From: Aporrectodea caliginosa
Taxonomy: Eukaryota; Annelida; Clitellata; Crassiclitellata; Lumbricidae
Direction of reading: 5' to 3'
Length of the DNA: 64,000 nt
Assembly (NCBI GenBank): GCA_020284085.1
Contig: JACEVL010000045.1
Span: forward strand, 325,001-389,000
Positions 15,363-50,219 of the stretch are shown one piece after another. Numbering within the stretch: the first letter of the stretch is position 1; each line of letters opens with the position of its first letter. The notes beneath the pieces are model-generated. The model saw nothing but the letters and a program-made list of their open reading frames with translations. It was not told where the DNA came from and did no database searches. A program made the translations under genes and the position numbers.

Positions 15363-15682
15363 CTAATGCTGCTCAATATTAGCATAGGCTGAGGTATGTT
15401 GCACAATATTAGCATAGGTTGGGGTCGTCTCGGAAAACTCATCTTGTAGTATTATATTATGGCTGCTACTGGCTTCAAGTGCAGAGAAGACAACAATTGG
15501 CTGGTAAACAATGACTGGTCTATCCATTAAAGCGCTGTAACCCTCGGAAACATCTTCAGTCTCGTCTGCTCTCGACGATGTTGCTGGAAATGCGTTGATT
15601 TCTACCTCGTGAATTGATTCGTAATCTGGGGATCGCCTCTGAAGATTCTCATTGGTAGAAATCTCCTGGATTCTTGATTTCT
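15363..15682 (-). CDS. terminal cytoplasmic exon of receptor A (tyrosine motifs)
   Basis: Acceptor tatcgtag at 15683-15690; the exon is open for 106 codons to TAG at 15363-15365. It is too GC/ATG-poor to stand out as an ORF, but entering in the phase set by the TM exon it reads five YxxI/L motifs: YESI, YSAL, YQPI, YANI, YANI. The spacing is YESI-24-YSAL-7-YQPI and then YANI-6-YANI. YANI is also a pYxN (Grb2-type SH2) site. IVYQPI and SAYANI also match the ITIM consensus (I/V/L/S-x-Y-x-x-L/I/V). Confidence 0.75.
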
Positions 15683-18600
15683 CTACGATACAAAGATTAA
15701 CGAATAGCCATGCTAAGTTTCAAAGTAATTCCACTTAAAGCTTAGATCTATTTGACACAATAAGAAATTAGATATATGGCAAGATATAAAATATGATACG
15801 ATAATATGACAATATACGAAAAGAGACAATAATGTCACTTTAATTTTGCGCCATATAAACATAGATTTTAATAGCGCTGTATTATGGGACACAACATCTG
15901 GGATGATTATAACATGAATACTATAATTGGCTTAAAGTAGACACTAGAAAGCAAACAGGTGTTTGGTGAGCAATTATAGCAGGTCTTTCCGCTAACGCGG
16001 TCTAACCTTCGGAAACATCTTCAGTGGGAATAGCGGCGTCCTGTATCGTCATTGTTGATGGCGATGCGTCTATTTCTGTTTCGTTAACATTTTCGTAAGC
16101 TGGCGATCGATTCTGACGTTTCTCCTTTGTCAAATTCGCTTGAGTTTTCTGTTTCTCTGTAACACAAAATATCTGCTTATAATATTATAACAACAGAACT
16201 GCACCAATGTGACTATATTGGATACAGAAGAGACATATGATATGCAACATAAAATATTACATGATGAGAGACATGAGATATGCATATGAGCATTAGAATT
16301 CAAGAACGATGCTAATCTATATTTTACAAATATTACTGTATTGTGATTTTATCGCAGCCGTTGAAGGTATTTGTAAATACTAAATAGTCGTCACTGGGCC
16401 ATGATTTACAGCCTTGTGCATTACCAGAAAGACTAAATAAATGTCACTATGACTTAATGACATACGTTGATTTACAGTCATTGAACTTATAACCCAGTCC
16501 ATCCTAAGGCAAGAGTTCAGATGCGATGCACCAATGTACAACAAGCAGATAAATATATATTCATATCTAATTGGTCAGCAATCAATTTTGCTTAACGCCT
16601 TCACTTATTTCATCATAATATGACACTATTTTAAAATTTATATTTATATTTAAATTTTTATTTATTTATTAGTATTTTTATTATTATATTACTATAAAAA
16701 GAAATAACTTACGCTAAGAGATGCTAATATAAACAGGTTAATAATTAAATTTGAGAAAACTGTTTTTGCAACATACAAACGCTTTATCATCGCAATTTTC
16801 CATATTTTTTACTAATCAATTGAATCAAACAATTACATGTATTTAGTGACAATTTGAATTATATTTGATATTAGCCTTTATAAAAGTATAAAGCAGTAGG
16901 CCATAATATGGTCGAAAATGAAATAAGCCCATTCGCTGCTCAAGCGTAGAGCAACCTATTTAGAAGTTTTTAGTAGTTTGCTTACCTTTTATTAGATCTG
17001 TGCCGATAGCAATTACGATAAGCAGCAAAATGGCGCAAATGATTCCCACCAACATGGTAACGACTGAATAATTGTCTGAACATTTAAAATGAAATCATTT
17101 ATGAGTCGGCGATAAAACGTAACCGCTGATTTGACGACAATTGAGTTAGAAACAAGTCAACAATGAGACTCACTATCATAAGTTGGTTCAACCCGTTGTA
17201 GAAGTAGCTTTGAGGAGAAATGAATTATTCTATCCAATTTAAATTCAAGCCACAGCCAGCCATGCACGTTCTCTTTTATGCCAAGACGCATCTTATTAGA
17301 TCCCTAAGATTTCTGTGTTCGCAACGTTTTAAGAGGCCTTGAAAGACGATATGCACAAGCTCAGATACACAATGTCATGTACGTACGTACGTACGTACGT
17401 ACACACTCACACAAATGCACAAATACTTACATACATATAAAATAAACATGCATTCATTCATCAATCCATCCATCGGCTTCTTTGTGCGCACATAGATACA
17501 TAGCTGTCAACATACATACATACATACATACATGCATACATACATACATACATACATACATACATACATACATACATACATACATACATACATACATACA
17601 TACATACATACATACATACATGTATGCATACTTACATGAATGCGTAGCATTGCTTACGCATGTTTATAAATTCGGTATTTTGCATTACCTGAGATTCTGA
17701 TATCGATCGTTGCAGAAGACCGAATGGTTTCATCGAACACTTGATTTTGAGCAATGCATTCTATTACGTGATGTTGATTGGCGTCCAAACCAACGTCATT
17801 CAAAGCTAGTTGAGGTCCATCTGCGATTTTCTGTTGTGCCATTCTCCAGGTGTACGAGGGACTCGGATTTCCAACAGCCTTACAACTTAGAATGTCTTTG
17901 CGTCTATATAAACCCTTCTGAGGTGTTATTGTAGTATTCCTCGGTCCAACTGAAATGCAGAACAATTTGATATGGACTAACAACAAGCATTATGCGAAAC
18001 TACCTTTGGTGAAGCAGAATAACTTATTACGGAATAAAATTAAAATTGCAAAATTAGTGAAGGTTTAGTTGGTGCTTCTGGACAATATAAAACAAATTTT
18101 CACACGAGATATCGCTCAATGAGGTGACAAGACGTTAGAATACAATCGTTCAGTTGTATATATTACTTCGCGGTTATAATTATGCTCAAGTACTTGGATA
18201 ACAGCAATTACATTCTCTAGAAGGACTGTATCTAGACTATTCTAGAGTCAATAGTATATATAGAGTTCTTTAAATTCTTATGTGTGAAATGGACATTATA
18301 TTATGAAGTAATTTTACGAAGACTCATGCTTATTATTCAAGTTAAGTTAACCCATAATCTTGTTTGATAACCCTGACTTTCGTCGTTTTCACTTTCGTAC
18401 AAAGAATTAACTAATTACAGTTATTTGCATAAGACCAAAGAGAGACAGATAATTTCTTCTTGAATAGGCCTATAATATGTGCTAAATCATCGTAGAAATT
18501 ACAGATTCTCAATATTATTCTCAATATTACCTTCTTGTTCCACGAGCGAGGACTGCTATGGCAAATCTAGAGCTTTTGCCTTCATTGGCCTTTCACTTTG

Positions 18601-18781
18601 GAACCAACTCCCTTCATCAACTCGTTCTTTGATATTATCTGGTGGTCCAGGTGCTTCCTTTCGCTGTCTTAAAACCACGCTTTTCTCTCGAGGTCTTTCG
18701 CACTGGGAGCCCCTCTGATTGGTACTCACTGTGAGGGGCGCTTTATAAATTTATAAATAAAATACAATTGTTCTGCATTAA

Positions 18782-18815
<34 letters not shown>

Positions 18816-21706
18816 TTTTTTTTTTGCCCGAGGTAGTTCTATTCCCTCAGGCTATGAAAACTATGTCCGAAGACGTGGTGTCTGGAACGACCGCTCACTC
18901 AACAAGTTCTTGCTGCTCAAAGGTGCCTCTGAAGGCCACGGCGTTAAATCGCTGGATGCAGACTGACAAGCGTTGGAAAAGGTAACTAGTTTCTTTAGGG
19001 TCCCCGGTGGTTTGGCTTACAAGGCGTCCCAAGTCCTTAATCAAATCCATTCCATTGTTGTTAATGGGGCCCATGGTATCGAAGGCCAGAGGAACAAAGA
19101 AATAGGTGCCTGCCAGCTGGATGTATTTAGCGTTCTTCCTGGTGGCCGCCACCTCCGCCGCCGCGCCCGCCGACGCAGATGTCGCCTGGAGGTATGACGG
19201 AGCCACGGTGTCGATCACCGTTGAGTCCCAGATGAGACTCCGTCCTCTGCGCCATGGAATCAGCGTGAGACCATCCGGGCGTCTGCCATCCGATCTAGAT
19301 AATCCGGGTGGTTCCTTGATATTTGGGAATCCCGCGCGTGTGAGGCTGCGACTGATTAGATCGTTCAATGCGGCGTGTCTGGCGATCCGTCCCGGTCCCA
19401 ATCCACAGGAAAGCCCGTGTGCTCCATCTGCCGTCACTCGAGCCCCGCATGGGCATGCGTGCGGCTCGCATATGCCTGTCCCCAGGCGAAGTCCCACCGC
19501 AATTCTGACCGCCTCATCGTCCAGCCGCAGTCCACATGTCGTCACCGGGAGGGCGAACAGCCAGTCCCATGCATGCGGTGCTGCGGTTGCCCTGAGTCGC
19601 GCCTGGTGGTATGGATCGGCATGGACACTGCTCAGTTCAGCTGCTGCCTTCAGCATGAGCGGCCTGTCCCAACTGGCCAACTATTATTATTATTATTATT
19701 TTTGACCCGAGGTATACAGGATCCCTCAGGGACTTCTTATTATTATTAACTCCTATTATGACCCATTAATTAAGCGCCGCTATTGTAGTGACGAAGCATT
19801 AATCGATGGCGCTGAGCAAATGTGAATGAAATATTTGCTCAAAGTACCTACTCTAAAACTATTTCATTGAAGGCTTTCAGCATAACAAGGCGAGTGCTCC
19901 GAACAATAGACTAACGTCTCCCAGATTAGCAGATGTGGCTTCAAACGAGTATTAATACCAAAGAGGTATTTAGTCAGAAAATAAATGGTAAGAAGAAAGA
20001 AACGTATACTTACAGAGCACGTTTAACGTTGTATTCCAGTAAAACAAATATTCCGGTATATTCTTTGCACTCGTTTTGTTGACATTTCTTGTCGTTTCAA
20101 CGAACAATGTTTTGCAAATTATCATCGCATCATTGTCTTCAGCCTTGACTTGCAAATTGATGAATGACGTTAATTGTTGCACATTCTGAGAAATATTGAT
20201 ATTTGCAATAGTAGGTGCTGATTTTAATGCATCTCCTTCTTTTGACCATTGCATCGATGGAGTCCAGTGACCTGAGTAATTTACGGCGCATTTCAATGCA
20301 ACGTAATCAAATTCTTTGAAGCTCCCGTCTATTATTGACATATTGGTGCTGCATTGTGGATCTGATTCTAGGCAAAGCAACATGACATTGTGTTTCTTGA
20401 TAAAGACATCACATGTGTACAAACGAGTCATAGCTTGTCCAGTAGGCCTAATAAGTATTATTAAAACACCAAACTTAAAGATCTTAACCACTTTAAAACC
20501 GTAGAATACATTAGATGCCCGTAAACTTATAAAATATATTGGAATTAACATCTTACTTTCATGAAAGTTCTTTTAGATTAAGAAAATGATTAAAGCCTCG
20601 TGAACAATTGTGAGGAACTTGTTCAAGGTGCCTTCGCAGTGACCGCCTCAGTTGAGGCTCGAACCCGTAATCTTCTCGTTACAAGCAATACATAGTTTAG
20701 CTGTTATAGAAAAGGATCCCATTTGTACGCTGTAGCAGCAGGAAGTGTGAGGAACTTGTTCAAGGTCCCTTCGAAAGTCCGTGTAATTGTTGGCATCAAT
20801 ATAAAGAAATTATATGTGATAGTTTAATTTATTTGGTTTAAAAAGTGCTTTTAGGAAATTGACAAAAGGACAAAAACATTTATTCATTACTCCACCAATT
20901 GCCATGTCTGCATACATGTAATTACCATTACAACAAATCGTTGAAATTATTTGAGACGAATTTGATGGAAAATACTAGCTTTGCTTTTCTCACTGCAAAC
21001 ATCGCATTACAAAATTGTAAACAAATCGATTACAGGGTAATTTACTACCAAAGACAATCAGCTGTGCGCTGTATCGTTCAGGTTGTTTTGGACTCTCGTG
21101 CACAACGCAAGTGTAGATTCCTGCGTCTTCCAGTCGATTTGAGTTGGAGTTAAGCGTTACAGATCCATCTTCATCAACATTGAAATCATAGTGTGAATTT
21201 CTCGTCTTTGCCTGGTTCTTCCAATTCGCCCAAATCCAAGTTATGTTTCGACTCAATGGTTTCTGTATCGTCCACTCGAAGATTTTGGAACCGTTGTCTG
21301 GTTTGCATTTCATTCCAACTGTTTGACCGACGGTGACAGCCAAATTTCTTGGACGATCAGGAAACGTCTTACTTCCTGACGATTCTACAAAATAATGTGA
21401 TTCAAATGTGACGAAACTTGAAGGCGATGATGTGCATTAGACAATTTTGTTTGTTTCCGATAAATTATGTTGTATGATTTATAATATCTAATAATATGAT
21501 ATAAAATGAGATGGCTGAAAACCAGATTATGCAGATATCTGCATCCGCATTTGTCTGTCCCCAAAAATATTAAATAATCCAAAATAATTGTGTTAATTGA
21601 TAAAACCATCAAGCTAATCCTGGTTTCTTGTTTAGCTCTACTTACCAACTATAAAAAATAACTGGAAAAGAGCAGCGAAAGTCCTCATCTTCCTGAAGCA
21701 AAGCAT
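15363..21706 (-). CDS. Ig-superfamily receptor A (3 Ig, TM, ITAM-like tail)
   Basis: Minus-strand exons: 21706-21646 (signal peptide MLCFRKMRTFAALFQLFFIV), 21384-21049 (Ig1), 20367-20014 (Ig2), 17949-17689 (Ig3), 17075-16986 (TM), 16156-16007 or -16002 (tail exon 1), 15682-15363 (tail exon 2). All internal junctions are phase 1, as is typical of IgSF genes. Ig1 is V-like (Cys in MKCKPD, Trp in FEWTIQ, then LEDAGIYTC). Ig2 has MQW and AEDNDAMIIC. Ig3 is I-set-like (LSCKAVGNPSP, YTW, HVIECIAQN). The TM segment is about 22 hydrophobic residues with no charged residue. The tail carries PAYENV, PDYESI, EGYSAL, IVYQPI, PTYANI and SAYANI. YSAL(x7)YQPI and YANI(x6)YANI fit the ITAM spacing rule. It is likely a cell-surface receptor signalling through SH2 proteins; ligand unknown. 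Exon structure was inferred by eye and mirrors copy B exactly through the TM exon. Confidence 0.8.
16002..16156 (-). CDS. tandem-duplicated tail exon of receptor A (PAYENV; early stop)
   Basis: This is a diverged tandem copy of the terminal exon: both start AG-AAA after TAG/CAG and both contain ...TEDVSEG. In this copy the codon that reads TAC (Tyr of YSAL) in the other exon reads TAG at 16002-16004. Used as a terminal exon it gives a short tail with one motif (PAYENV). A usable donor GAAG|gttaga at 16007 keeps phase 1, so it could instead be spliced to the next tail exon and add a motif. Confidence 0.65.
17505..17620. repeat. (CATA)n microsatellite
   Basis: A nearly perfect CATA tract lies in the Ig3-TM intron of receptor A; the mirrored (TATG)n is at 40488-40560 in B, so the tract predates the duplication. 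An adjacent ACGT tract at about 17380-17402 is also mirrored in B. Confidence 0.95.
18480..18775 (+). repeat. L2/CR1-type LINE 3' end in arm A
   Basis: The frame reads AFAFIGLSLWNQLPSS and SFRCLKTTLFSRGLSHW, with stop and tail GGGGCGCTTTATAAATT; this is the standard L2-like C-terminus and tail. It lies antisense within the Ig2-Ig3 intron of receptor A and is mirrored at 39300-39605 in B. Confidence 0.75.
18822..19690 (-). mobile_element. 5'-truncated LINE with C-terminal endonuclease-like domain, arm A only
   Basis: A 261-codon minus-strand frame (19680-18895) contains a Cys-His cluster (CPCGARV...HGLSCGLGPGRIARH) and then RPDGLTLIPW...GRSLIWDSTVID, the order seen in LINEs carrying a restriction-enzyme-like endonuclease after the RT (RPD...D core). 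It is followed by CCTGAGGGAATAGAACTACC TCGGGC and (A)n(TAA)n. A short related tail (CCCTGAGGGATCCTGTATAC) sits immediately upstream at 19700-19740 and is shared with arm B at 39212-39260. The ORF-bearing part is missing in B. Confidence 0.65.
20630..20790 (-). repeat. tRNA-derived SINE fragment in Ig1-Ig2 intron
   Basis: The minus strand reads TACGGGTTCGAGCCTCAACT (B box), then GGCGGTCACTGCGAAGGCAC. The same fragment is at 38160-38345 in arm B. Confidence 0.55.
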
Positions 21707-21930
21707 TTTGCCTGTTGTCCAATGCGCCAAACAAAACAGAAGCTTATATTTAAAACAATGTTCTCGTTCTGACAACCGCTGCTTAAAAACATATGAAAGG
21801 AAAGTTTTTTGGTATGGGTTAGCTTCACAGGCAGAAGGATGAAAGCGTGTATGTGCAGGCGAAATCGTAAATGGTCATAAAAAATCATGATAGCCTGAGA
21901 AACGATAATGCACATTGTATGCAATTATGT
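21707..21930 (-). promoter_or_regulatory. conserved 5' flank of receptor A
   Basis: About 220 bp directly upstream of the start codon are nearly identical to the flanks of B (37030-37250) and E1 (33983-34205), and recognisable in E2 and F. A TATA-like GTTTTAAATATAAGC lies about 40 bp before the ATG. The flank is inferred to be the core promoter and 5' UTR; no transcript data are available. Confidence 0.45.
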
Positions 21931-22348
21931 AGACCGGGAATACAGAAACAAATGTAATATTAGGCTCAATGTCAGTTTCGGTCCTTACTTTTGGAAAAAA
22001 TGGCAGTTGATTTGCTAACAGTTAGAATAGTGAGTGGCAGCCTTCGTGCTTCCTATTGTCAATCAGAAATTCCTGTGGACTTGAGCTGGCAAAACCTAAC
22101 CAGTTGCTAGACTATATATTATGTCCTGTCTCTCTGCTTTTCGAAAGGTTTTCGACGCATGACACCAATCTGCGAAAACTTCGCTTAAGTCATTTTCTTT
22201 AGATCAACTCAAATCATTTATTTATGTCACCATCAGAAGAGGAAAACAAATGTTACACCTAAAACTCGTTTTTGTAACAACAGGTCTTCACCTCTGTTGG
22301 TACATGCATTCAAATATGCTGTGATATCCAACTTCTTCTTTCTCCCTA

Positions 22349-22699: not shown

Positions 22700-22878
22700 T
22701 TAAAGGGGTTCTGAGTTATGGTCATTTGACATTGATTTTTAAGGTTTGACCTTTAAATTACCTTTTTTGTGTTAGTCTTTCAGAAGACAGAGTACTTAAA
22801 CACTAATACAATCCAAGGACATTTAAAGTTCAAACCTTAAAAATCAATGTCAAATTACCATAACTCAGAACCCCTTTA
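22700..22878. mobile_element. foldback (long inverted repeat) element
   Basis: Arms 22700-22758 and 22820-22878 are inverted copies at about 93% identity, starting TAAAGGGGTTCTGAGTTATG on each side, with a 61-bp loop. No clear target duplication is visible. It could form a strong hairpin. Confidence 0.75.
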
Positions 22879-22879
22879 G

Positions 22880-25239: not shown

Positions 25240-26277
25240 TGTGTTTCATATTTATTGGCCAGAACATGAAAGGTTGCAAGTACAAATACAAGTGCTGAGG
25301 TCTTAAGTACCTGTACAAATACTTAAGTATCAAGTACAAGTACGAGTACAAGTACTAAGGTGACAAAGGTCTCGAGTACAAGTACGAGTACAAGTACACA
25401 TGGCTACTGCAAGAACAAGGATTTACTTCGTTGACATATTGGTGTATAGCCACATGCACTCATTTATAATTCTGCGTTTTTATAAATATAATGGATGTGA
25501 GCATCTTGTCACTCAGATTCGATCGAAACTGTTTTAATATTAAACTAAACGCACTCTCAACCGGAGCGCTAGATGCAGGCACACTCACAACTCTAAACGC
25601 TATTGTCAAGAACAGTTTTGCTGCATTCCAAACGTCCAAACAATCAATTTCATCAAAGTCATCATGGCCTCTGATATTCAACCAGGTTGTCACTTGTGAT
25701 GATAAGGTGCTCGGTTTCACAGGAGATCGTGTACAGTAGTGACCAAATAGCTTAGACTTTTTTGATGCATGGGCTCTGCAGTTTCGGTTGGTGCAACCGT
25801 ATCTGTGATTATCACTGCCAAAATGAGACGTTTTTGTCTCACCTGCTCCACCACTGCCAAAGAAACTTAATGTAGTTCCCAACAAAGCATGTGTCTCTGA
25901 CTGTCTCATTCACATAAGACATAATCACATCTGCACACATTAAATAAGAACATACTAGTTGTAGGCAGTCTTTGACTATTGGAGTAACACAAAGAAAATG
26001 CCTTAATTAACGTTTTACGTAAAACAGAAAAGTGATTCAGCATATCTGTGCATCACAAAGCTTATGATCAGTTGCTGCAATCTTCTCAATGAATCTGACC
26101 TTGAAAAACGTAAGTGAATATTGTTACTAAATCTGATATTTATAGGCGCTAAGTGAAAAGAAATGAAACTTTAAACATTTACCATTTTAATTATTTTTTA
26201 CCATATTTTACCATTTTTTTACCACGGTTAAATATAATGCGGCTTTTTTACCGGTAAAAAATCGTTTCACATCACTA
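25240..26277 (-). mobile_element. decayed hAT transposon with transposase C-terminus
   Basis: The minus-strand frame 25909-25460 contains ...DVWNAAKLFLTIAFRVVSVPASSAPVESAFSLI, the hAT C-terminal dimerisation motif (lP.SSAPVER.FS). The right terminus reads on the minus strand TAGTGATGTGAAACGATTTT, a hAT-type end abutting ATCGTATTCC of the duplicated receptor exon. On the left, arrays of AAGTAC/GAGTAC at 25275-25400 resemble subterminal repeats. No left terminus or duplication is identified. Confidence 0.65.
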
Positions 26278-26303
26278 ATCGTATTCCTCGATGCTAACGC
26301 CGG

Positions 26304-26650: not shown

Positions 26651-27082
26651 CCGGCTTCAGATGTATTGCTGTTGCACTGTGGGTCTGATTCTATGAAGAA
26701 CAACATTTTTTTCTAGGCTTAAACTTTGTGTTTAAACTTCATAAATCACGCGAAACGTTTATGCTCACTTATCTTGAGTCTAGCTGCATGCTAACTCAGG
26801 TGACACGATTAATGGTTTTGAACAAGTAGGTAGACCTACAGACGTCTTCCAACGCTTGTCCTGACTTGTCATCCATTCAATATTCATCGGATTTCCAAAA
26901 ACTGCGTTTGACGAAGTCTTATGGAATCAGCTGCGAACGAAACAGTTTCCGTAATTGTTATGCCAATCGTGTAGCCACAAAGCGCTGCAGAAACTTTGAG
27001 CGGTGGGTACGAGCGACCACAAGCGCTGATTTCAGTCAGTGTGCATGTATTTTGATAGCGGCTATTCGGAACCTTTCTAATG

Positions 27083-28029
27083 CATCTAAATCTGAATAGG
27101 ACTGGTGCTTTGTCCTTCGACACTGCATACTTTGCCTGAGAGTCATTGAAAAATCAGATAGGAAGGAACACAAAGGAACTGTCACTGTGAGTACTGTTGT
27201 GTTTTGGTTGGAGAAAGGGAAATCGGCGATTCGTAGGAGTAATGGATGCTGTCTCGAAAAGGATGAATTTCCTTTTGAATGGAAAGCCTTATGAGTGATT
27301 GTTGGAGTGGCTTGATGTGAATGATGAATGATAAATATCTGATATTCTCAGCGCCACATGAAGTCAGGCAATGGAGAACAGCCAATTACCGACGCCATAT
27401 CATATGCAGTTCGTAAGAGCCAAGTTGTTCAGTTTCGGTGCTAGATCAAAATCAGGGGAGATTGGGGCGGAGTAAACAGCGTGTTGCTAAGATGGAAAGG
27501 GATTATGATGGCAAACCGGATGAGGGTGGATGGACGAGCGGTTGAGTGTTAGAGCAGAATATTTGCTACCATAGCAGAACGGTTTCTGTGTCTAATAATG
27601 CAAGGTAGAAAATTAATTCAATGAGGCTGAAGACGATTTGTTGGCTGAAGGAAGTTGTACATAAATTGGTGCAATTATTCAACAGCTAAAAGTGAGGCAG
27701 TTGAAAAATAATGTGCTTAATTAAGTTCCACAGTCAGTGGCTTTCAATTTTATCCTTATAGCCATTTCTATAGTGTGCCTCGCAAATTTGTCAGGACATT
27801 AGATCACAAAGGCAGATGTCAAAAAGTAGTTTATCTGTTGTCTTTCATCTCAGCTGTAATATCCTAAAATTAATCTAAAGTATGTTCGCTTCTTAGTCGT
27901 TAGGCCTACTAATAGTTCATAGGTATTGTTCTTTGATACAGTGCCTTTTATTCTGTGGTTTTAATGTCTATGATAGGCCTATCATTATTAGTCAGACGCG
28001 TCTGCTATATTTACATATGAGAGAAGCTA
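27083..28029. other. unassigned DNA within E1, absent from E2
   Basis: E1 and E2 align up to about 27083/46322 and again from 28216/46905. Between these points E2 has a LINE and E1 has this sequence, in which I recognise no gene or element. Confidence 0.4.
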
Positions 28030-28037
28030 TTACGCAT

Positions 28038-28207
28038 CAGTGGCGGCGCCAGGGGGGCTAGGGGTGCTTAGCCCCCCCCAAATGCGGCTCAGCCTCCTAA
28101 AATCACAGCGAGGAGGTTTTAAATGAGCTGTAAAAGCAAAAAAAGGTCATCCGGACAAATTTGTGAGCTTTAGCCCCCCCAAACCTGAAATCCTGGCGCC
28201 GCCACTG
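28038..28207. mobile_element. hAT MITE with perfect 16-bp TIRs
   Basis: Termini CAGTGGCGGCGCCAGG and CCTGGCGCCGCCACTG are perfect inverted repeats. The duplication TTACGCAT at 28030-28037 and 28208-28215 is perfect. It is 170 bp and non-coding. A partial copy begins at 62157. Confidence 0.95.
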
Positions 28208-28215
28208 TTACGCAT

Positions 28216-30582: not shown

Positions 30583-30868
30583 AACACGGTCGCAGTTGTC
30601 CGTAAGCCGATAATGATGGAATGTTGGATGAAACCAGACGAGACGATGAAGTGGTGTTTAGTTATGCGGTTAAAGGAACTCGTCGTTTCTCGACAACTGT
30701 GAACGATGGTGAAAGAACTGAAAACCTCACCAAGATTCAATTTAGAAATTTTAGATAATTGTACAGGACTTGGTAACATGAACTAATAATAGCGAACAAC
30801 GTTATAATGTCGGATGCTGGAATCTACGAGGCTCGATCAACTCAAATTGCAGCAACTGCTGAAATTAG

Positions 30869-32260: not shown

Positions 32261-32264
32261 AAAT

Positions 32265-32375
32265 TTGACTGTCACCGTCGGTCAAAAAATGGAAATCAAA
32301 TGTAAACCGGACAACATTCTTAAAATCAGCGAATGGACGATTCAGAGACCATTAATTAAGTCATGACAAAAGACC
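32265..32375 (+). pseudogene. inverted Ig1 exon fragment in E1
   Basis: The plus strand reads a decayed Ig1 start (L.VTVGQ.MEIKCKPDN-type codons, then SEWTIQ), opposite in orientation to the Ig1 of E1 about 1.3 kb away. The equivalent inverted pair is present in E2 at 55605-55710. Confidence 0.6.
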
Positions 32376-32719
32376 AATTTGTGCAAACAGGACGGAGGAG
32401 ACAAAGATGAAAAATTTTACATAATGGCTTCTATGTTGACGAATAATTATGGCCCTGAGGCCCTGTTGTGTGTATCATTTTCTCATATGAATTACACATT
32501 CTGATGGATAAGTCCGAGTATAGAATTGAATAGTTGATTATTGAATAGTAATGTACAGAAATGGAATTTTTTATAGGGGGGGCAGGTCGAAAATGTCAAA
32601 GAAAATTAACATGAAGAACACACCCTAATAATAATATTATGGCTTCTCTTTTGTCAACAAAATTAAAGTCAAATGGTACCAACAGTTTAGTTTGTTTCGC
32701 TCCTCCAGTTAGTCCAAAT

Positions 32720-33521
32720 CATAGTTGTTAAAAACGGTAAAAGCAAACTAAAACCTGAAAAAGCGTCGTTTTATTAAAAAAATAAAAAACGGAAAAAACA
32801 GAAAAGAAAATTATTTGACTTGGTTGCATCTTATACTGCATTTTAAATTTAAAAGCCTTGTTTACACAATTTAATTTTAATCAGCAAATGACACAACTTT
32901 ATTGGTAAACATCAAGTAATATTAATCTACAACAATTATTTTTTTGAAGTTTGGTTTAATAAGAAATTGAGAGATTAAAAATACTGAAATCTTCTCAAAT
33001 TTAAATTGTAAACATAAGTCCACATGAGACCATGCTGATATAAACAATTAAAAAGTAAACTTTGTAAGTATGGATTAGGCCTATACTTAATTAAAACTTA
33101 TAGACTAGGCCTACTTGCAATTTTGACTTAAATAAGAACTTATTATGGAGTAATATCAGTCAGTTTATCAATCAATCGGAGATTACTGTATACAAAGACA
33201 ATATTTCGCATTTTGGATACGGTAACCTAGAAATTCAAATAACTTTTCTAAATTTTATTTCCTGTACTGTGTTATTTATTTCTCAACTGATAACATTAAA
33301 TAGTGACGTAAATTAGTTGAATCCTTTAAAGGATAGAGACAGCGTAAGAGATATCAGACAAAAATAAAATTAAACAAATAATAACAGACAGTAAATAAAT
33401 AAATAAAGTTACATCAAACAAATAAAAAACGGAAGAAAAACGTGACGAAAAATAAAAAACCAAAAACCCACATTTTTTGGGAAAAAATAAAAAAAGGAAA
33501 AAAATGTTTTTTACAAGTATG
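32720..33521. mobile_element. hAT non-autonomous element inside E1 Ig1
   Basis: Termini CATAGTTGTTAAAAAC and GTTTTTTACAAGTATG (two mismatches) are flanked by a perfect 8-bp duplication, GTCCAAAT, at 32712-32719 and 33522-33529. E2 shows the empty site (TCGTCCAAATCCAA at about 55965). It is 802 bp, A-rich, non-coding, with AAATAAAAAACGGAAGAAAA repeats. Confidence 0.9.
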
Positions 33522-34530
33522 GTCCAAATCCAAGTTTTGTTGTGACTTAATGTTTGCTGCATTTTCCACTCCCTGATTTTGGAAATGTTGTACGGTTTAC
33601 ATTTCATTGCAACTGTTTGACTGACGGTGACAGCCAACTTTCTTGGACGATCAGGCAACGTCTTACTTCCTGACGATTCTAAAAATGTGATTCAAATGTG
33701 ACGAAACTTGAAGGCGAAGGTGTGCATTAGACTATTCTGTTTCTGATCTGTTGTAAGAATTATAATATCTAATTATATGACACATAATTAGATGATTGAA
33801 AACCAGATTTGTGGATGTCTGCATCCATATTTGTCTATCTCCAAAAATATCAAATAATCCAAAATATTATTATAAATTTATAAAATCATCAAGCTAATCC
33901 TGATTTTTAAGATCTACTTACCAACTAGAAAAAATAATTGGAAAAGATCAACGAAAGTCCTCATCTTCCTGAAACACAGCATTTTTGCCTGTTGTCCAAT
34001 GCGCCAAACAAAACGGAAGCTTATATTTAAAACAATGTTCTCGTTCTGACAACCGCTGCTTAAAAACATATGAAAGGAAAGTTTTTTGGTATGGGTTAGC
34101 TTCACAGGCAGAAGGATGAAAGCGTGTATGTGCAGGCGAAATCGTAAATGGTCATAAAAAATCATGATAGCCTGAGAAACGATAATGCACATTGTATGCA
34201 ATTATGTAGACCGGGAATACAGAAACAAATGTAATATTAGGCTCAATGTCAGTTTCGGTCCTTACTTTTGGAAAAAATGGCAGTTGATTTGCTAACAGTT
34301 AGAATAGTGAGTGGCAGCCTTCGTGCTTCCTATTGTCAATCAGAAATTCCTGTGGACTTGAGCTGGCAAAACCTAACCAGCCGTTGTTGAATATGCACTG
34401 CCCTTCTCTATCTATGCATAGGATGTCTGATCGCCGCACGCGTGATCAATCAGACCTTGTAATTATAACTTTAATACGACATTTACAAAGCACCACTTGA
34501 AGAATAAACTCATCAGTGGCTCTCAGTGAA

Positions 34531-34920
34531 ATAAATGACTGTCTCTCTCATGCCATTCCACGCATTCCTGGCCAGGGCCTAGATTTAAGCTCATATAATT
34601 ATGAACGCATTCTGGAAGCCATATTTTGCTAGATGAGCTTTGCAATCTTACTGGTCAATCCAGTTCAGAACATAAGAGATGAGAAGAGAGAGCCACAAAG
34701 AACAATCTAAACAGTTTACCACCAGTAGAATATAGAGGTATCTAGCACTACTGAGCTAGCTATAGCATGTTACCTATATTTATTAAGGAAAAGGCAACAC
34801 ACAGCTAACCAAAGTGCTCATAAACCGCAATAGACTTTAGCAGATTTTATTAGGCGCTGCAATATCATGTATTTGGAGTCTACTTCACCTCTTATGGTGA
34901 TACATACTTACTCGTCGGCA
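34531..34920. other. spacer between E1 and the LINE
   Basis: No gene or element is recognised. The segment CCTGGCCAGGGCCTAGA at 34568 is also found at 57480, so this spacer belongs to the E1/E2 duplication. Confidence 0.4.
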
Positions 34921-36082: not shown

Positions 36083-36086
<4 letters not shown>

Positions 36087-37029
36087 CGTGACTGTCATAT
36101 ATATGTATGACACACAAGCAGCATATGTGAACGTGTTTTTTGAGGACAGTGACATTTGGTTGAGATGAATATTGAATAGGTTAATTAATAGGCCTATTAA
36201 CGTTTTAATGCTTGAATGACAGCAGTATTGTATATGCACACACACGCACACGCACACACATATATTTACTACTAAAATTTATTAATTATATTATATTAAA
36301 GATATGTATTAATTTATAATAGTTCCACATGGCGCGCAAAAGTTTTCTGGTGTGAGCGATTTGTAATTTTCTAATAGTAGATATGTTTGATCTAGCCTAG
36401 AGACAACTGATGTGTAAAATTGAGTTTGTTGTGTTGAACTGCGAAGAAGAAAGAGCCAGAAAACGTTTTCGAACTGTCTGAACATTACTCAATAGCCATG
36501 CACTACTATAGTGAGGTTGTTATTAGGCAGAAATTAGAAAATACAGTTATAGTAGTGATAGACCAGACAAAGAAGACGAAACCATAACCTTTAGGGAGTC
36601 TAAGGGAGAAAGAAGAAGTTGGATATCACAGCATATTTGAATGCATGTACCAACAGAGGTGAAGACCTGTTGTTACAAAAACGAGTTTTAGGTGTAAGCC
36701 CTAACATTTGTTTTTATCTTCTGATGGTGACATAAATAAATGATTTGAGTTGATCTAAAGAAAATGACTTAAGCGAAGTTTTCGCAGATTGGTGTCATGC
36801 GTCGAAAACCTTTCGAAAAGCAGAGAGACAGGACATAATATATAGTCTAGCAACTGGTTAGGTTTTGCCAGCTCAAGTCCACAGGAATTTCTGATTGACA
36901 ATAGGAAGCACGAAGGCTGCCACTCACTATTCTAACTGTTAGCAAATCAACTGCCATTTTTTCCAAAAGTAAGGACCGAAACTGACATTGAGCCTAATAT
37001 TACATTTGTTTCTGTATTCCCGGTCTACA

Positions 37030-37250
37030 TAATTGCATACAATGTGCATTATCGTTTCTCAGGCTATCATGATTTTTTATGACCATTTACGATTTCGCCT
37101 GCACATACACGCTTTCATCCTTCTGCCTGTGAAGCTAACCCATACCAAAAAACTTTCCTTTCATATGTTTTTAAGCAGCGGTTGTCAGAACGAGAACATT
37201 GTTTTAAATATAAGCTTCTGTTTTGTTTGGCGCATTGGACAACAGGCAAA
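37030..37250 (+). promoter_or_regulatory. conserved 5' flank of receptor B
   Basis: It is nearly identical to the A and E1 flanks. A TATA-like TTTTAAATATAAGC starts at about 37202, some 40 bp before the ATG at 37251. In F and E2 this TATA-like stretch is altered. Confidence 0.45.
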
Positions 37251-40200
37251 ATGCTTTGCTTCAGGAAGATGAGGACTTTCGCTGCTCTTTTCCAGTTATT
37301 TTTTATAGTTGGTAAGTAGAGCTAAACAAGAAACCAGGATTAGCTTGATGGTTTTATCAATTAACACAATTATTTTGGATTATTTAATATTTTTGGGGAC
37401 AGACAAATGCGGATGCAGATATCTGCATAATCTGGTTTTCAGCCATCTCATTTTATATCATATTATTAGATATTATAAATCATACAACATAATTTATCGG
37501 AAACAAACAAAATTGTCTAATGCACATCATCGCCTTCAAGTTTCGTCACATTTGAATCACATTATTTTGTAGAATCGTCAGGAAGTAAGACGTTTCCTGA
37601 TCGTCCAAGAAATTTGGCTGTCACCGTCGGTCAAACAGTTGGAATGAAATGCAAACCAGACAACGGTTCCAAAATCTTCGAGTGGACGATACAGAAACCA
37701 TTGAGTCGAAACATAACTTGGATTTGGGCGAATTGGAAGAACCAGGCAAAGACGAGAAATTCACACTATGATTTCAATGTTGATGAAGATGGATCTGTAA
37801 CGCTTAACTCCAACTCAATTCGACTGGAAGACGCAGGAATCTACACTTGCGTTGTGCACGAGAGTCCAAAACAACCTGAACGATACAGCGCACAGCTGAT
37901 TGTCTTTGGTAAATTACCCTGTAATCGATTTGTTTACAATTTTGTAATGCGATGTTTGCAGTGAGAAAAGCAAAGCTAGTATTTTTCATCAAATTCGTCT
38001 CAAATAATTTCTACGATTTGTTGTAATGGTAATTATATGTATGCAGACATGGCAATTGGTGGAGTAATGAATAAATGTTTTTGTTCTTTTGTCAATTTTC
38101 TATAAGCAATTTTTAAACCAAATAAATTAAGCTATCACATATAATTTCTTTATATTGATGCCAACAATTACACGGACTTTCGAAGGGACCTTGATCAAGT
38201 ACCTCACACTTCCTGCTGCTACAGCGTACAAATGGGATCCTTTTCTATAACAGCTAAACAACGTATTGCTTGTAACGAGAAGAATACGGGTTCGAGCCTC
38301 AACTGAGGCGGTCACTGCGAAGGCACCTTGAACAAGCTCCTCACAATTGTTCACGAGGCTTTAATCATTTTCTTAATCTAAAAGAACTTTCATGAAAGTA
38401 AGATGTTAATTCCAATATATTTTATAAGTTTACGGGCATCTAATGTATTCTACGGTTTTAAAGTGGTTAAGATCTTTAAGTTTGGTGTTTTAATAATACT
38501 TATTAGGCCTACTGGACAAGCTATAACTCGTTTGTACACATGTGATGTCTTTATCAAGAAACACAATGTCATGTTGCTTTGCCTAGAATCGGATCCACAA
38601 TGCAGAACCAATATGTCAGTAATAGACGGGAGCATCAAAGAATTTGATTACGTTGCATTCCAATGCGCCGTAAATTACTCAGGTCACTGGACTCCATCCA
38701 TGCAATGGTCAAAAGAAGGAAATGCATTAAACTCGGCGCCTATTACTGTAAATATCAATATTTCTCAGGATGTGCAACAATTAAGGTCAGTCATCAATTT
38801 GCAAGTCAAGGCTGAAGACAATGATGCGCTGATAACTTGCCAGACATTGTTCATTGAAACGACAGAAAATTTCAACAGAACCAATGCCAAGAATGTACCG
38901 GAATATTTGTTTTACTGGAATACAACGTTAAACGTACTCTGTAAGTATACGTTTCTTTCTTCTTACCATTTATTTTCTGACTAAATACCTCTTTGGTGTA
39001 TTTACCCGTTGAAGCCACATCTGCTAATCTGGGAGACGTTACTATATTGCTCGGAGCACTCGCCTTGTTATGCTGAAAGCCTTCAATGAAATAGTTGTCG
39101 AGTAGGTACTTTGAGCAAATATTTCACTCACATTTGCTCAGCGCCATCGATTAATGCTTCGTCACTACAATAGCGGCGCTTAATTAATGGGTCATAATAG
39201 GAGTTAATAATAATAAGAAGTCCCTGAGGGATCCTGTATACCTCGGGTCAAAAATAAGTTAATAATAATAAAAATAAAAATAATAATAATAATAATAATG
39301 CAGAACAATTGTATTTTATTTATAAATTTATAAAGCGCCCCTCACAGTGAGTACCAATCAGAGGGGCTCCCAGTGCGAAAGACCTCGAGAGAAAAGAGTG
39401 GTTTTAAGACAGCGAAAGGAGGCACCTGGACCACCAGATAATATCAAAGAACGAGTTGATGAAGGGAGTTGGTTCCAAAGTGAAAGGCCAATGAAGGCAA
39501 AAGCTGTAGATTTGCCATAGCAGTCCTCGCTCGTGGGACAAGAAGGTAATATTGAGAATAATATTGAGAATCTGATCTGTAATATCTACGATGATTTAGC
39601 ACATAGACTATAGGCCGATTCAAGAAGAAATTATCTGTCTCTCTTTGGTCTTATGCAAATAACTGCAATTAGTTAATTCTTTGTACGAAAGTGCAAACGA
39701 CGAAAGTCAGGGTTATCAAACAAGATTATGGGTTAACGGCACAAAGACACCAATGCTTGAATAATAACTATTAATTGCGTCCCCTCAGCATGAGTCTTCA
39801 TACAATTTCTTCATGATATTATGTCCATTTCACACATAAGAATTTAAAGAACTCTATATACTATTGACTCTAGATACAGTCCTTCTAGAGAATGTAATTG
39901 CTGTTATCCAAGTACTTGAGCATAATTGTAACCGCGAAGTAATAAATACAACTGAACGATTGTATTTTAACGTCTTGTCACCTCATTGAGCGATATCTCG
40001 TGTGAAAATTTGTTTTATATTGTCCAGAAGCACCAACTAAACCTTGACTAATTTTGCAATTTTAATTTTATTCCGTAATAAGTTATTCTGCTTCACCAAA
40101 GGTAGTTTCGCATAATGCTAGTTGTTATCCATATCAAATTGTTCTGCATTTCAGTTGGACCGAGGAATACTACAATAACACCTCAGAAGGGTTTATATAG

Positions 40201-43181
40201 ACGCAAAGACATTCTAAGTTGTAAGGCTGTTGGAAATCCGAGTCCCTCGTACACCTGGAGAATGGCACAACAGAAAATCGCAGATGGACCTCAACTAGCT
40301 TTGAATGACGTTGGTTTGGACGCCAATCAACATCACGTAATAGAATGCATTGCTCAAAATCAAGTGTTCGATGAAACCATTCGGTCTTCTGCAACGATCG
40401 ATATCAGAATCTCAGGTAATGCAAAATACCGAATTTATAAACATGCGTACGCAATGCTACGCATGCATGTAAGTATGCATACATGTATGTATGTATGTAT
40501 GTATGTATGTATGTATGTATGTATGTATGTATGTATGTATGTATGTATGTATGCATGTATGTATTTTTCATGTATGTTGACAGCTATGTATCTATGTGCG
40601 CACGAAGATGCCGATGGATGGATTGATGAATGAATGCATGTTTATTTTATATGTATGTAAGTATTTGTGCATTTGTGTGAGTGTGTACGTACGTACGTAC
40701 ATGTACGTACGTACATAACATTGTGTATCTGAGCTTGTGCATATCGTCTTTCAAGGCCTCTTAAAACGTTGCGAACACAGAACTCTTAGGGATCTAATAA
40801 GATGCGTCTTGGCATAAAAGAGAACGTGGCTAGCGGTGGCTTGAGCTTAAGTTGGGAGCAATTCGTATCTTCTCAAACTGCAGTTAACTTTTTGTGGCTC
40901 AATAATAATTGTAAAATCAGCGGTTACGTTTTATCGCCGACTCATATTTTCTTGTTAATTGTTCAGACATTTCAGTCATTACCATCTTGATGGGAATCAT
41001 CTGCGCCATTTTGTTGCTACTCGTAATTGCTATCGGCAGAGAACTCATCAAAGGTAGGCAAACCACTAAAAACTTCTTAATAGATTGCTCTACGCTTGGG
41101 CACAGAATGGGCTTACTTCATCCATCGACCATTACTGTTTTATACTCTTATAAATATTAATATCAAAATTAATTCAATTTACAGCTTAATTATTGATTGA
41201 TTTAATTGATTGGTACAAAAATATGGCATGCTACAAGGAGCATTAGAGGCAGTTGCGATGGTAAAGCATTTGTATGTTGCAAACAATAGTTTTCTAAAAA
41301 TTAATTAATATCCAGTTTGTATTAGCATCTCTTAACGTAAGTTGTGTTTCCTCAGCAATTGCACTTACCTGACGTAAAATAAAAATTTACCTAATTATTT
41401 GTTTTTATTAAAATAGTATCACGTATGATGACTTAAGTCAAGGCGTTAAGAAAAATTGATTGGTGACCAATTAGAGGCAAATATATATTTATCTGCCTAT
41501 TATACATTGGTGCATCGCATGTGAGCTGCTGTTTTAGGATGGATTGCTAAACTTTCGTCTGTGTTTCGACGAGGAGGACCAGCTATTGAGCCAGACATCC
41601 TACCAAATGCCGATGAAATTCACAATGGTTTGTTCCGATATAACACTTCAAATTAATCTAAAAAAAATAATAATGATGATATTCTTTATTATTTCAGACT
41701 GACAAATGCAGTATGATTAAAATTCAGTATGAACGGATGATCACAAGTTATTACAGGAGTCGAATTTAACTGTATACGACAGCCATGCAAGGCGCCCGTC
41801 ACGTCCTGCTACACGTTTTACCAACGCCATCTAGCGAATGGCAGGCTGAGTGGACCTTTGATACAAGCCGGTTTCTGCTTTCCCTCATCGTTACTTCTTT
41901 TTATTTGGCTTTGCATGCGCCATTTATGTCTTTCAATGCGCGACTGTGTGTTAACTGTATGTTTTTGTATTTAGGCGACGCTTCTAACAACGAGTTTGAA
42001 CCTTATGGACACTACGCAGTTCCAGCAGAATGCCTAGCTGTTGGTGGGTTATATATATTCAACAATACAATGTTTCAATGTCTGTAAATTAAGATATATC
42101 ATTGAGTCATAGTGACATCTATCAAGTCTTTCTATAGTATGGCACAAGGCTTCAAATCATGGGTTTCGTGGCCCAGTGATCAGGGCCTCCACTCCTAGGG
42201 ATATCCCCCAAGATCTTAGGATTTTGGGGTCGACTTTGAATCTGGGGATTTTGCATAGTAATCTTGGGATTTTTCTAAGTTTTTCCAGTTGCAGCGAATC
42301 AGATTAGTGGATCTGTTTGAAAAGACTTTTATTATTATAGTAACTTGTAAACATTGTAATTTTTTAACTCAATGTCATGATCCGGTTTTTTCTTTGCCAG
42401 TTCTTAGCTTTTTTGGTCACTTTTGGCCAATCTTGGGAATTTTGTTGGAAGATCTTGGGATTTCTGAAAATGGAGAGTGATCAATATTTACATGTAAGAC
42501 TTACCGTAAGCACCTGTGATAGAATCACAATACAATAATATTGGTAAAATATAGATTTTCATCATTCTTGAATTTCTTAGGCCTATTTACAGCAGTGCTG
42601 TTGTTATAAGCGTTTCAGCCATATAAGTCTTAGCCGTTGTATAAGAAATTACTCCTAAGAGTTTATTCAACATGTTGATTCAGGAAATACTCCGAGACAG
42701 CGAGTTGAAAGAGTAATAATTGAAAGTCACGTTGACGTCGTTGAAGAGGCAGGTAGGCTCATAGAACAACATTACTTCATACAACGTAGGTAGTCTTATG
42801 ATGACTATTATTTGTAATATTATTGTAACTGTAGATTTTTGTGACGCTTCTTAAAGGGACAGAAGCATGAGCGATCATGGTGACTGAATCCGGGATCGAA
42901 CAGAACGGTTTTAAGTGCTGTATACGGAAGAGAAGTAAACAAAGGCCACAGTGTGCTAAACATGTAATCTATGCCTGAAAACTTGACCATCTAATGCATA
43001 GCATAATTATAGCATATGTCCTGGAAGAAAGTGAAACGTGTTAAGTCGAACAAAACAACATATTATGAAGAGTAATTTGAACAACGGTAAGCGAGATGAA
43101 CAATGCCTCAAAAGTGCTGCAGTAGGATATGTAAAAGATATGCGGCTTAAAATCTAATAACTTTTGGAGCATATACATACC

Positions 43182-43219
<38 letters not shown>

Positions 43220-44937
43220 CCTATATATTATATATGAAATCCTTCTTAGGGGCAGCTGCGAATAGGTTTGATGAGACAATGGACGAAAAATTCCCGGTTT
43301 ACGCTCAGATCAACAAATCAAAGAAACGTAAGTATGCTTTATTTTATTTTAAAATCAGTAATGTTGTCAAAATATCAGTTTAGAATAATTTACAAATAAT
43401 CAACAGACTCTGTTGACTTAATTAATACGTAGTTAGAGACAAATAGGCCTAATTATTACAGAAATTTATATCAGGACTGAGGACTTGTATAGTTACAGTA
43501 TAAGCCACCAGGATGTACCTGCACTACTAGCAGCAGTTTACATAGAGAATTAGAACTACATTTTAAGGCAAGTTCTAAACATTTATTGTGTTATATCTGG
43601 TACTCTTAGAAGCTGTATCTGAATGCAACACTTATAGTCCATGGGTCGTAGCAAAGACGCCAGCATCAGCAAAAATGGTAGGATATTGCCAATGATCTAA
43701 TGATTGATGTTTTTTGTAGCGTCCATAAACTAATGTAAGTTTGCAGAATGAAATAAGCATACCCAAAGAAATGTATTCATTCAGTTAATTAGTTGATACA
43801 CCTAGCCATATATTTGGGAAAGTAATTATCTATAGTGATGTGTCAGATTCGATCTACTTTAAGACTACGTGTTGGTCCAAAATATGAAATCATAATAATT
43901 TTCTCTATGCGTTTCATAGTAGAATTCATTTTTGGAAGGCTTCTTATACTCCAATTTGATGCTGAAGTTTCAGTGTAAATCTTCTGTTCATGGAAAATCT
44001 GTAGCCTAAATTCTATCAACGTGTCGTAATCGGCCAACAGGCCCTAATTTCTTTTCAAAACTTCATAACAAACTCTTAAACGGCTTCACTTAAAAATAAA
44101 AATTTGGTAATGCCTTAAAATTCACTCAGTCGTAGTTCGATGCGTGAAACAAAATAACTTTAAATAATAATAATAATATTAGGAACTCAAATCCTGTATA
44201 TTCTAGCATATTGGAATCGTCATGGGCCGTGTTATGTTATGAAGAATTAAACCGTTGTGAGTGTCATTGCAGTTTTTTGCAATCAGGAAGTCGTATTGTG
44301 TTACTTCAAAGAACTAACCATACACGCAATTTCTTCTTTGTCTAACTGATGCTGAAGTTAATTAAGAAGAAGTTGCATTTAGAGTCAAACGGTGCTCGGA
44401 TAACTAGAGAAGATACTAGATTTTGTTTAAAGAGATATGTAGTATGACGATCTTGTTTCATATTGTTTTGGAGCTTTCGGTTCTAAATCAACATTCAAAC
44501 ACTCAATAAACACTCAAAGAGAACATTTTACGTTTCTGTCAAACTGAAAGCTATGATATATTATGTAATTTAATGCTCCTCTCTCTGATCTCTCTGGGAA
44601 CCGGACTCCGATCTTCTTGTGGCATCTCTGGACAACCCCTCTGACACGACGCAGCATTTGTGAATAAGCTGATGCCCTGCCCTTAGCTGTATAGTAGTGT
44701 CTTAGAAATTTGTAAGATTACGATTACGATACGATTACGATTGCGGTCTATGATTTTTAGAGCGTTGGACTTGACGGAACAGTCTATGCGGAACTGAAGA
44801 CAGATGAAGGTCACCATCAATCGGAGGAGGCTTCTGGATCACTGTTTCAAAACCCAATGTTCAACCAATCGGAATACGCCAGCATCGACCACACAGTGGT
44901 ACCTCCACCACCTCCACCACCTCCACAGAGAAAATGA
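37251..44937 (+). CDS. Ig-superfamily receptor B (3 Ig, TM, long ITIM-like tail)
   Basis: Exons: 37251-37311 (signal peptide), 37573-37908 (Ig1), 38587-38940 (Ig2), 40155-40415 (Ig3), 40967-41053 (TM, LMGIICAILLLLVIAI), then tail exons 41538-41627, 41975-42043, 42684-42752, 43250-43327, 43610-43677 and 44761-44937 (stop TGA). Every junction has GT-AG signals and phase 1 until the last intron (phase 0), and the frame stays open throughout. The Ig residues are as in A (Ig1 LEDAGIYTC; Ig3 HVIECIAQN). The tail of about 180 residues has FPVYAQI, TVYAEL and SEYASI plus an eight-proline run before the C-terminus QRK. SEYASI fits the ITIM consensus, and YAEL and YASI are 26 residues apart, too far for an ITAM. 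A candidate AATAAA lies at about 45496. Inferred role: surface receptor recruiting SH2 phosphatases, with SH3/EVH1 binding at the polyproline; ligand unknown. Confidence 0.8.
39205..39605 (-). repeat. LINE tails in arm B, with empty site of the arm-A LINE
   Basis: It holds the tail CCCTGAGGGATCCTGTATAC, (TAA)n and the antisense L2-type 3' end, mirroring 18480-18780 and 19695-19745 but without the 0.87-kb ORF-bearing segment. Confidence 0.7.
40488..40560. repeat. (TATG)n microsatellite
   Basis: Mirror of the CATA tract of arm A, in the Ig3-TM intron of receptor B. It is shorter than in A. Confidence 0.95.
42165..42510. other. insertion specific to receptor B intron
   Basis: Sequence absent from arm A, with repeated ATCTTGGGATTT units. 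It has no termini I can identify. It lies between tail exons of B. Confidence 0.4.
43190..43222. repeat. (AT)n microsatellite
   Basis: AT tract 30 bp upstream of the acceptor of the tail exon at 43250. Confidence 0.9.
44625..44755 (+). repeat. SINE-like repeat next to the last acceptor of receptor B
   Basis: AATAAGCTG-family repeat ending (GATTAC)n. Its tail ends about 15 bp before the splice acceptor at 44760, so the polypyrimidine region of the last exon of B is partly SINE-derived or closely abutted by it. Confidence 0.55.

Positions 44938-50207: not shown

Positions 50208-50219
<12 letters not shown>

Follow-up and report, generated by a model that had tools for sequence, protein, structure and literature searches.

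A 64,000-bp stretch of contig JACEVL010000045.1 (positions 325,001 to 389,000 of the forward strand; hereafter the window) carries two predicted receptor genes of the immunoglobulin superfamily (IgSF), here designated A and B, which lie head to head in inverted arms. The structural part of our explanation, namely twin IgSF receptor genes with a mosaic likeness and differing tails, is very likely correct. The reading that we favour goes further and combines an old inverted duplication, a binding half that was kept alike, tails that were exchanged, and SH2 partners that differ between the two tails; we give it about an even chance of being right. Evenly balanced, too, as far as the DNA can tell, is the proposal that A and B would share a ligand and turn it into different outputs.

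In our exon-chain models, gene A occupies 21706 to 15363 of the minus strand and encodes 523 amino acids from start to stop; gene B, with 549, extends over the plus strand from 37251 to 44937. The inverted duplicated arms described in the original prediction were recovered by blastn, which paired 19684–22347 with 39271–36603 (97.3% identity) and 16495–18835 with 41546–39239 (85.7% identity), with a spacer of 14,255 bp between the inner arm ends. Each gene is built from a signal-peptide exon, three one-exon Ig domains, a transmembrane (TM) exon and a tyrosine-bearing tail. The introns of both models are GT-AG throughout and phase 1, save B's final intron, which is phase 0. The modelled features are given below, with tail exons numbered from T1 in each gene.

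21646..21706, minus strand: A exon 1, start codon and signal peptide, identical to B exon 1.
21049..21384, minus strand: A exon 2, Ig1, V-set-like, one residue off the B copy.
20014..20367, minus strand: A exon 3, Ig2, the diverged domain, 22/118 residues unlike B.
17689..17949, minus strand: A exon 4, Ig3, 0/261 mismatches to B.
16986..17075, minus strand: A exon 5, TM segment with an uncharged core (gene model).
16486..16503, minus strand: relic in A of B's first tail exon, acceptor and first bases, then an in-frame stop (GWTGL, stop).
16007..16156, minus strand: A tail exon T1 (YENV), with a weak donor (GTTAGA) just 5' of its own stop, or an alternative last exon.
15363..15682, minus strand: A last tail exon T2, with YESI, YSAL-x7-YQPI, YANI-x6-YANI and the stop (model and motif scan).
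37251..37311, plus strand: B exon 1, start codon and signal peptide (gene model).
37573..37908, plus strand: B exon 2, Ig1, V-set (gene model and Pfam).
38587..38940, plus strand: B exon 3, Ig2 (gene model).
40155..40415, plus strand: B exon 4, Ig3 (gene model).
40967..41053, plus strand: B exon 5, TM segment with an uncharged core (gene model).
41538..41627, plus strand: B tail exon T1, its body absent from A, with a weak donor (GTTTGT).
41975..42043, plus strand: B tail exon T2, absent from A (gene model).
42684..42752, plus strand: B tail exon T3, above the strict splice threshold.
43250..43327, plus strand: B tail exon T4, PVYAQI (gene model).
43610..43677, plus strand: B tail exon T5, phase 1 to 0, above the strict splice threshold.
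44761..44937, plus strand: B tail exon T6, with TVYAEL, SEYASI, polyproline and the stop (model and motif positions).

The A arm also contains an open frame of 261 amino acids in its Ig2–Ig3 intron (18895–19680, minus strand), which belongs to a large mobile-element-like family with 813 matches; the segment 18836–19683 of this arm is absent from the B arm. A self-complementary palindrome of 178 bp (22701–22878, 85% identity) lies in the spacer near the 5' side of A.

The likeness of the two genes changes along their length. The signal peptides are the same in A and B (0/61 bases differ in the exon), Ig1 differs at one of 112 residues (N103I), and all 86 complete codons of Ig3 are identical, just as had been noticed at first inspection. 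The accompanying description of near-identical Ig ectodomains applies to Ig1 and Ig3 but not to Ig2, in which 22 of 118 residues and 31 of 354 bases differ. Read 5' to 3' on the B arm, the mismatches amount to 0/61 in the signal-peptide exon, 0/261 in intron one, 1/336 in Ig1, 15/678 in intron two, 31/354 in Ig2, 39/1173 in intron three, 0/261 in Ig3, 37/542 in intron four, 11/87 in the TM exon and 88/457 (19.3%) in the TM-tail intron. Two runs are free of mismatches.

36717..37818: longest mismatch-free run, 1102 bp, covering 5' flank, signal peptide, intron 1 and most of Ig1.
40121..40449: second mismatch-free run, 329 bp, centred on Ig3.

A run of 1102 bp was reached in none of 2000 mismatch shuffles (mean longest run 124, maximum 271). 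The 534 bp upstream of the two ATGs are identical, and the 960 bp from the 5' flank to Ig1 show 0/960 mismatches between A and B; over this same stretch the other three family copies in the window differ by 8.5–14.0% from each other and from A and B. Ig3 likewise has 0/261 mismatches against 3.3% and 6.8% in its flanking introns. A bacterial-type promoter scan of the 5' flank was uninformative on an animal promoter.

A single recent duplication does not account for a mosaic that ranges from 0% to 19% divergence; the pattern would be best explained by an old duplication with later conversion of the 5' half and of Ig3. Ig2 is more divergent than either adjoining intron (Fisher P = 3.7e-6 and 6.4e-5). 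We considered positive selection on this domain and dropped it, and we read Ig2 instead as an unconverted older island, because nonsynonymous and synonymous divergence are both raised (dN 0.087, dS 0.122). A frame-broken Ig2 exon of the same family (fragment F, 45584..45930, minus strand) sides with A at 11 and with B at 20 of the 31 Ig2 differences (binomial P = 0.15), and thus shows no donor for Ig2.

At the protein level, a Pfam scan found Ig families in both models. Taken alone, Ig1 (B copy) best matches V-set PF07686 with 42.6 bits (cut-off 26), and Ig2 and Ig3 give only Ig matches under the Pfam cut-off. Each Ig domain has a cysteine pair, with a third cysteine in Ig2. The scan of both models returned Ig families and sub-cut-off matches to other families, with no sushi domain; the scores of A for TMEM51, Ly49 and SIT fell under those families' own cut-offs and were not used. 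The best PDB sequence match is CEA (E = 1.8e-14, residues 101–287), followed by Robo2, Dscam and contactin, and matches at this level indicate IgSF membership of the ectodomains without showing any specific kinship to CEACAM. A search with B, which scored the 7995 candidates sharing most words, returned only three weakly matching fish proteins as relatives (two named VCAM1-like, one uncharacterised; E = 1.7e-7 to 1e-4). No relatives were confirmed among the viral contigs and genome contigs searched, and the tRNA and Rfam scans gave no matches. AlphaFold models were too poor for a fold search (mean pLDDT 46.7 for Ig1 and 34.2 for Ig2).

The TM cores of A and B contain no charged residue, and signalling would therefore have to come from the receptors' own tails, which fits the earlier proposal of signalling built into the tail. 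Tail motifs were found where that proposal had placed them. In A these are YSAL-x7-YQPI (15495–15539, minus strand) and YANI-x6-YANI (15375–15416, minus strand); in B they are YAQI at 43300, YAEL at 44785, SEYASI at 44869 and polyproline at 44902. The model of the A tail adds a further exon, T1 (16156–16007). In the models, all of these motifs join in frame to the Ig exons via GT-AG introns.

All six tyrosines of the A tail lie in YxxL/I/V and five of them in YxxL/I, with two pairs at the spacing of an immunoreceptor tyrosine-based activation motif (ITAM; x7 and x6). Two such pairs occurred in 0/5000 shuffles of the full A tail and in 3/5000 shuffles of its last exon alone. We also applied a harsher control consisting of 2148 stop-free stretches of at least 20 residues from the six frames of the window, with the real tails and simple repeats included. 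Across its 83,272 residues this control held 68 ITAM-spaced pairs, which gives 0.127 per tail length, and against this rate the two pairs in A have a Poisson P of ∼0.007, and the match of the A tail to the ITAM spacing rule was thus upheld above chance. An acidic-anchored ITAM has an acidic residue three positions before its first tyrosine, and no ITAM-spaced pair of A has one. A hemITAM pattern matched neither tail.

The strict version of the paired-receptor model, in which A activates by two built-in ITAMs and B inhibits by immunoreceptor tyrosine-based inhibitory motifs (ITIMs), draws on the spacing in A and on the tyrosines of B, three of whose six lie in YxxL/I, a count reached in only 29/5000 tail shuffles yet ordinary in the six-frame control (P = 0.11). 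Counts of the loose ITIM [ILVS]xYxx[ILV] run against it: A has two (139/5000 shuffles; six-frame P = 0.058) and B one (1038/5000; P = 0.35). SEYASI of B, which had been put forward as an ITIM, is indeed a loose match, but a single one at chance level while A has two, and sequence alone gave no ground for keeping B as an ITIM receptor. As PMC12447643 words it, a classical ITIM is I/V/L/SxYxxL/V, and neither tail contains one; the non-classical form of the same source fits IVYQPI and SAYANI in A and TVYAEL and SEYASI in B. The last two, whose tyrosines are 30 residues apart (tail positions 134 and 164), count in favour of the strict pair, and the want of an acidic-anchored ITAM in A counts against it. 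Overall we consider the strict pair unlikely, and the assignment of an activating role to A and an inhibitory one to B is not supported by these comparisons. The DNA does not reveal whether either tail would activate or inhibit a cell. As predicted, A looks most like a receptor that carries ITAM-type pairs in its own tail; B has a multi-docking tail to which no sign can be assigned.

The tail motifs may also be read in a different way, with A and B as adhesion or uptake receptors whose YxxI/L and YxN motifs are Grb2/Src docking sites or endocytic signals and whose tails tune adhesion or internalisation. YxN is a Grb2-type site, and YxxL/I/V is also the form of a sorting signal. There are three YxN sites in A (22/5000 shuffles) and none in B, the best PDB matches are adhesion or guidance proteins, and PMC2832619 does not decide between internalisation and activation for the ITAM-like motifs of CEACAM. 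However, uptake does not need tandem ITAM spacing, and the ectodomain matches tell no more than IgSF membership. This explanation appears improbable to us, more so than the strict pair.

Past the TM exon the two genes had been called unrelated. This applies to the tail coding exons, among which 12 DNA and 14 protein comparisons found no similarity after correction; the best of the 26 were equalled in 10/1000 and 13/1000 shuffles and are not significant, and tail exon homology was accordingly set aside. It does not apply to the DNA around them. A 16480–16399 matches B 42079–42162 at 81%, and A 16395–16281 matches B 42476–42591 at 74%, both colinear and on the expected strand, and the second of these is the last firm homology. 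Both stretches are unique in the window save for one 36-bp partial match at 50141, and none of 100 shuffles of the A tail region produced a match. A colinear match of 18 bp (B 42592–42609, A 16202–16185; E = 0.063) may extend the homology, ending 28 bp (A) and 74 bp (B) ahead of the next modelled exons; beyond A 16185 and B 42609 none was found. Between the homologous flanks, B has a segment without a counterpart in A.

About 41560..42078: B segment lacking in A, T1 body and all of T2, with A/B homology on both flanks.

A keeps the T1 acceptor and the first bases of B's T1 and hits the stop after GWTGL. A deletion in A would be a simpler reading of the missing segment than an insertion in B, which stays an alternative because no outgroup has this region.

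The two modelled tail exons of A are related to each other (48% identity over 50 residues). The stop in T1 sits at the position of the YSAL tyrosine in T2, and polyadenylation-like signals follow. We infer that A may end in T1, with one tyrosine, skip to T2, or include both via the weak donor.

A less flattering account of the locus is that palindrome conversion was neutral and that A, having lost its true tail exons, is decaying and now reads into chance sequence. It could draw on the absence of B's T1 and T2 from A, where the relic exon ends in a stop, on the truncated or broken state of most other copies in the window, and on the dN/dS of ∼0.73 between T1 and T2 of A. But the five ectodomain and TM exons of A are open, its last exon is open for 106 residues in the right frame with motifs above chance, and T1 and T2 of A form a duplicated module with a common reading frame; we rate this account as improbable as the adhesion or uptake explanation. 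That A and B represent two alleles, or an inverted copy joined wrongly in assembly, is scarcely credible: although 1102 bp of unbroken identity can easily mislead an assembler, the TM-tail introns differ by 19%, the two genes end in dissimilar DNA on their 3' sides, and 14,255 bp of spacer separate arms that lie in inverted orientation.

Under the favoured reading, an old inverted duplication would have yielded the two IgSF receptor genes, and arm-to-arm gene conversion, or an equivalent recombination, would have prevented the binding halves from drifting apart even as the ends of the tails were swapped, as the mosaic suggests. One step further, A and B would be expressed together and bind one ligand or ligand class through Ig1, and the signal from this ligand would be routed by the two receptors to different SH2-domain partners. 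Src-family kinases would phosphorylate the tandem YxxL/I pairs of A, and a tandem-SH2 kinase of the Syk/ZAP type would be recruited there. The three wide-set YxxI/L sites and the polyproline end of B would recruit other SH2 and SH3 partners, possibly a phosphatase of the SHP type.

Several observations weigh against this reading. Neutral conversion is possible in a large inverted repeat and the identical block spans non-coding DNA, so identity alone is no proof of selection for a common ligand. The divergence of Ig2 (96/118 residues shared) means that one ectodomain could not stand in for the other throughout. No homologue of the A tail was found at E≤10 among 384 candidates, and coding constraint on the tail is not evident from the dN/dS between its T1 and T2. 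The exon joins of A and B, moreover, are predictions from models rather than from transcripts. In our splice-site score, a simple one based on consensus values and read against a strict threshold, B T1, T2 and T4 and A T1 score under the threshold, and the tail region of A has no candidate internal exon above it. Between the TM exon and the last exon of B there are three phase-1 open candidates above it, and one of them, 42408–42493, is outside the model, which uses the other two (T3 and T5). Donor scores are negative for B T1 and, outside the tails, also for Ig1 of A. The threshold is a harsh one, since the Ig1 and Ig2 exons fail it as well, and T5 (43610–43677) is included in the six-exon tail of B because it is required to hold the frame. 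Given the sub-threshold scores, the six exons assigned to the tail of B and the use of T1 in A are both predictions.

Besides A and B, at least six more pieces of their receptor family are present in the window, among them copies at 32.2, 33.5, 55.6 and 56.1 kb that are partial or broken, and the surroundings of A and B look like a birth-and-death cluster as far as their sequence can suggest.

57692..58943, plus strand: family copy E, intact signal peptide and V-set exon (58.1–58.8 kb), splice sites present.
33521..34395, minus strand: family copy C, signal peptide and truncated Ig1.
55830..56865, minus strand: family copy D, Ig1 with stop codons.

Ig1 of copy E has a dN/dS of ∼0.49 against A, and no Ig2, Ig3 or TM exon was found in the 5 kb that remain to the window end. 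A tblastn search of the window gave no place below E 0.2 for Ig3, TM or tail exons outside A and B. Seven blocks in 26652–34532 and 45888–56980 are 77–84% identical in common order and strand, indicating a segmental duplication that also carried Ig1 fragments. Inverted repeats of 180 bp at 30885–31064 and 31608–31787 (99.4% identical, ∼540 bp apart) look like a recent element with long terminal inverted repeats. A repeated element of ∼830 bp occurs in direct orientation at 13631–14441 and 51339–52171 (81% identical), a C-terminal dimerisation region of hAT transposase lies at 25463–25909 (PF05699, E = 0.00021, just above the cut-off), and a long GAT-type trinucleotide repeat tract, open in more than two frames or so many as to be called several, occupies 8717–9439.

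Compared with known receptor systems, A and B have the similar ectodomains (Ig1 111/112, Ig3 identical, Ig2 96/118) and unlike cytoplasmic parts of paired receptors. The proposed analogy with vertebrate paired receptors is borne out for the shared signal peptide, V-set, Ig3 and 534 bp upstream and for the differing tyrosine tails, but not for the sign of the outputs. A close parallel is drawn from PMC2832619, where the homology of CEACAM pairs often extends through the TM exon, and in opossum through the first cytoplasmic exon, where the last cytoplasmic exons are replaced by ITAM-bearing ones, where exchange extends over the leader and N domain, where inverted gene clusters are assumed to ease conversion, and where mammalian CEACAM3 has an ITAM-like motif in its own tail. 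A and B resemble CEACAM1 and CEACAM3 in a V-type N domain probably kept alike by conversion or recombination, replaced last tail exons, an own-tail ITAM-like motif and an inverted arrangement; they differ in that the middle one of their three Ig domains has diverged and neither tail contains a classical ITIM. That this locus represents a CEACAM-style scheme built independently outside vertebrates, as a palindromic twin with a converted 5' flank and V-set, swapped signalling exons, two ITAM-spaced pairs in the tail of one twin and a choice of A tail (T1 with its own stop, or T2) perhaps made by splicing, is a tentative suggestion that we hold with less confidence than the favoured reading.

Among invertebrate receptors, Botryllus FcoR is described as a type I multigene family of 520–610 amino acids with a V-type Ig and two further Ig domains, a sushi domain between the V-type and C2-type Ig, and extended tails that bear ITIM, hemITAM or core YxxI/L/V motifs, swapped by splicing at some loci; it adjoins a fester gene (PMC12065747). 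A and B are like FcoR in size (523 and 549 amino acids), in the V-type Ig with two Ig domains and in their long tyrosine-motif tails, and unlike it in having no sushi domain found and no match to the hemITAM pattern. Oyster CgIgIT2 is an IgSF receptor with five Ig domains and an ITAM in its own tail (PMC11999971), to which the ITAM-spaced pairs of A can be compared, but A and B have three Ig domains, and the excerpt mentions no tail-swapped twin. The Hydractinia Alr system, according to two reviews, is an IgSF multigene complex with ITAM or ITIM motifs on candidate allorecognition genes. The A/B locus can be likened to it, by description only, as an IgSF multigene complex. Hydractinia Alr is not known to include an inverted tail-swapped pair.

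In vertebrates, the ectodomains of CD300A and CD300C are kept alike by gene conversion while the tails differ, and CD300C relies for signalling on an adaptor and a charged residue in its TM segment (PMC12447643); activating KIR, LILR and Siglec members also take the adaptor route (PMC2832619). A and B share with the CD300 pair an ectodomain probably kept alike by conversion but have no charged residue in the TM core such as that of CD300C, which makes the adaptor route of CD300C, KIR, LILR and Siglec unlikely for them. Receptors whose own tail bears an ITAM or ITAM-like motif have been described before, namely mammalian CEACAM3 (PMC2832619) and oyster CgIgIT2 (PMC11999971). In the literature searched, which was covered in part, no conversion-homogenised, tail-swapped twin is described in an invertebrate. 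Tail-swapped Ig receptor pairs are already known in mammals, and the A/B twin would add a new form to this known kind, provided that its host lies outside the vertebrates.

Should both genes be expressed and their host be an invertebrate, receptor pairs that couple a single ectodomain to two outputs would arise outside vertebrate immunity as well. The route, if the reading is true, would be the one taken in mammals, with duplication, conversion of the binding domain and exchange of tail exons, and the tail breakpoint and the relic exon help to order these events. The locus would then offer a compact setting for testing how ITAM-type and other tyrosine tails divide the work.

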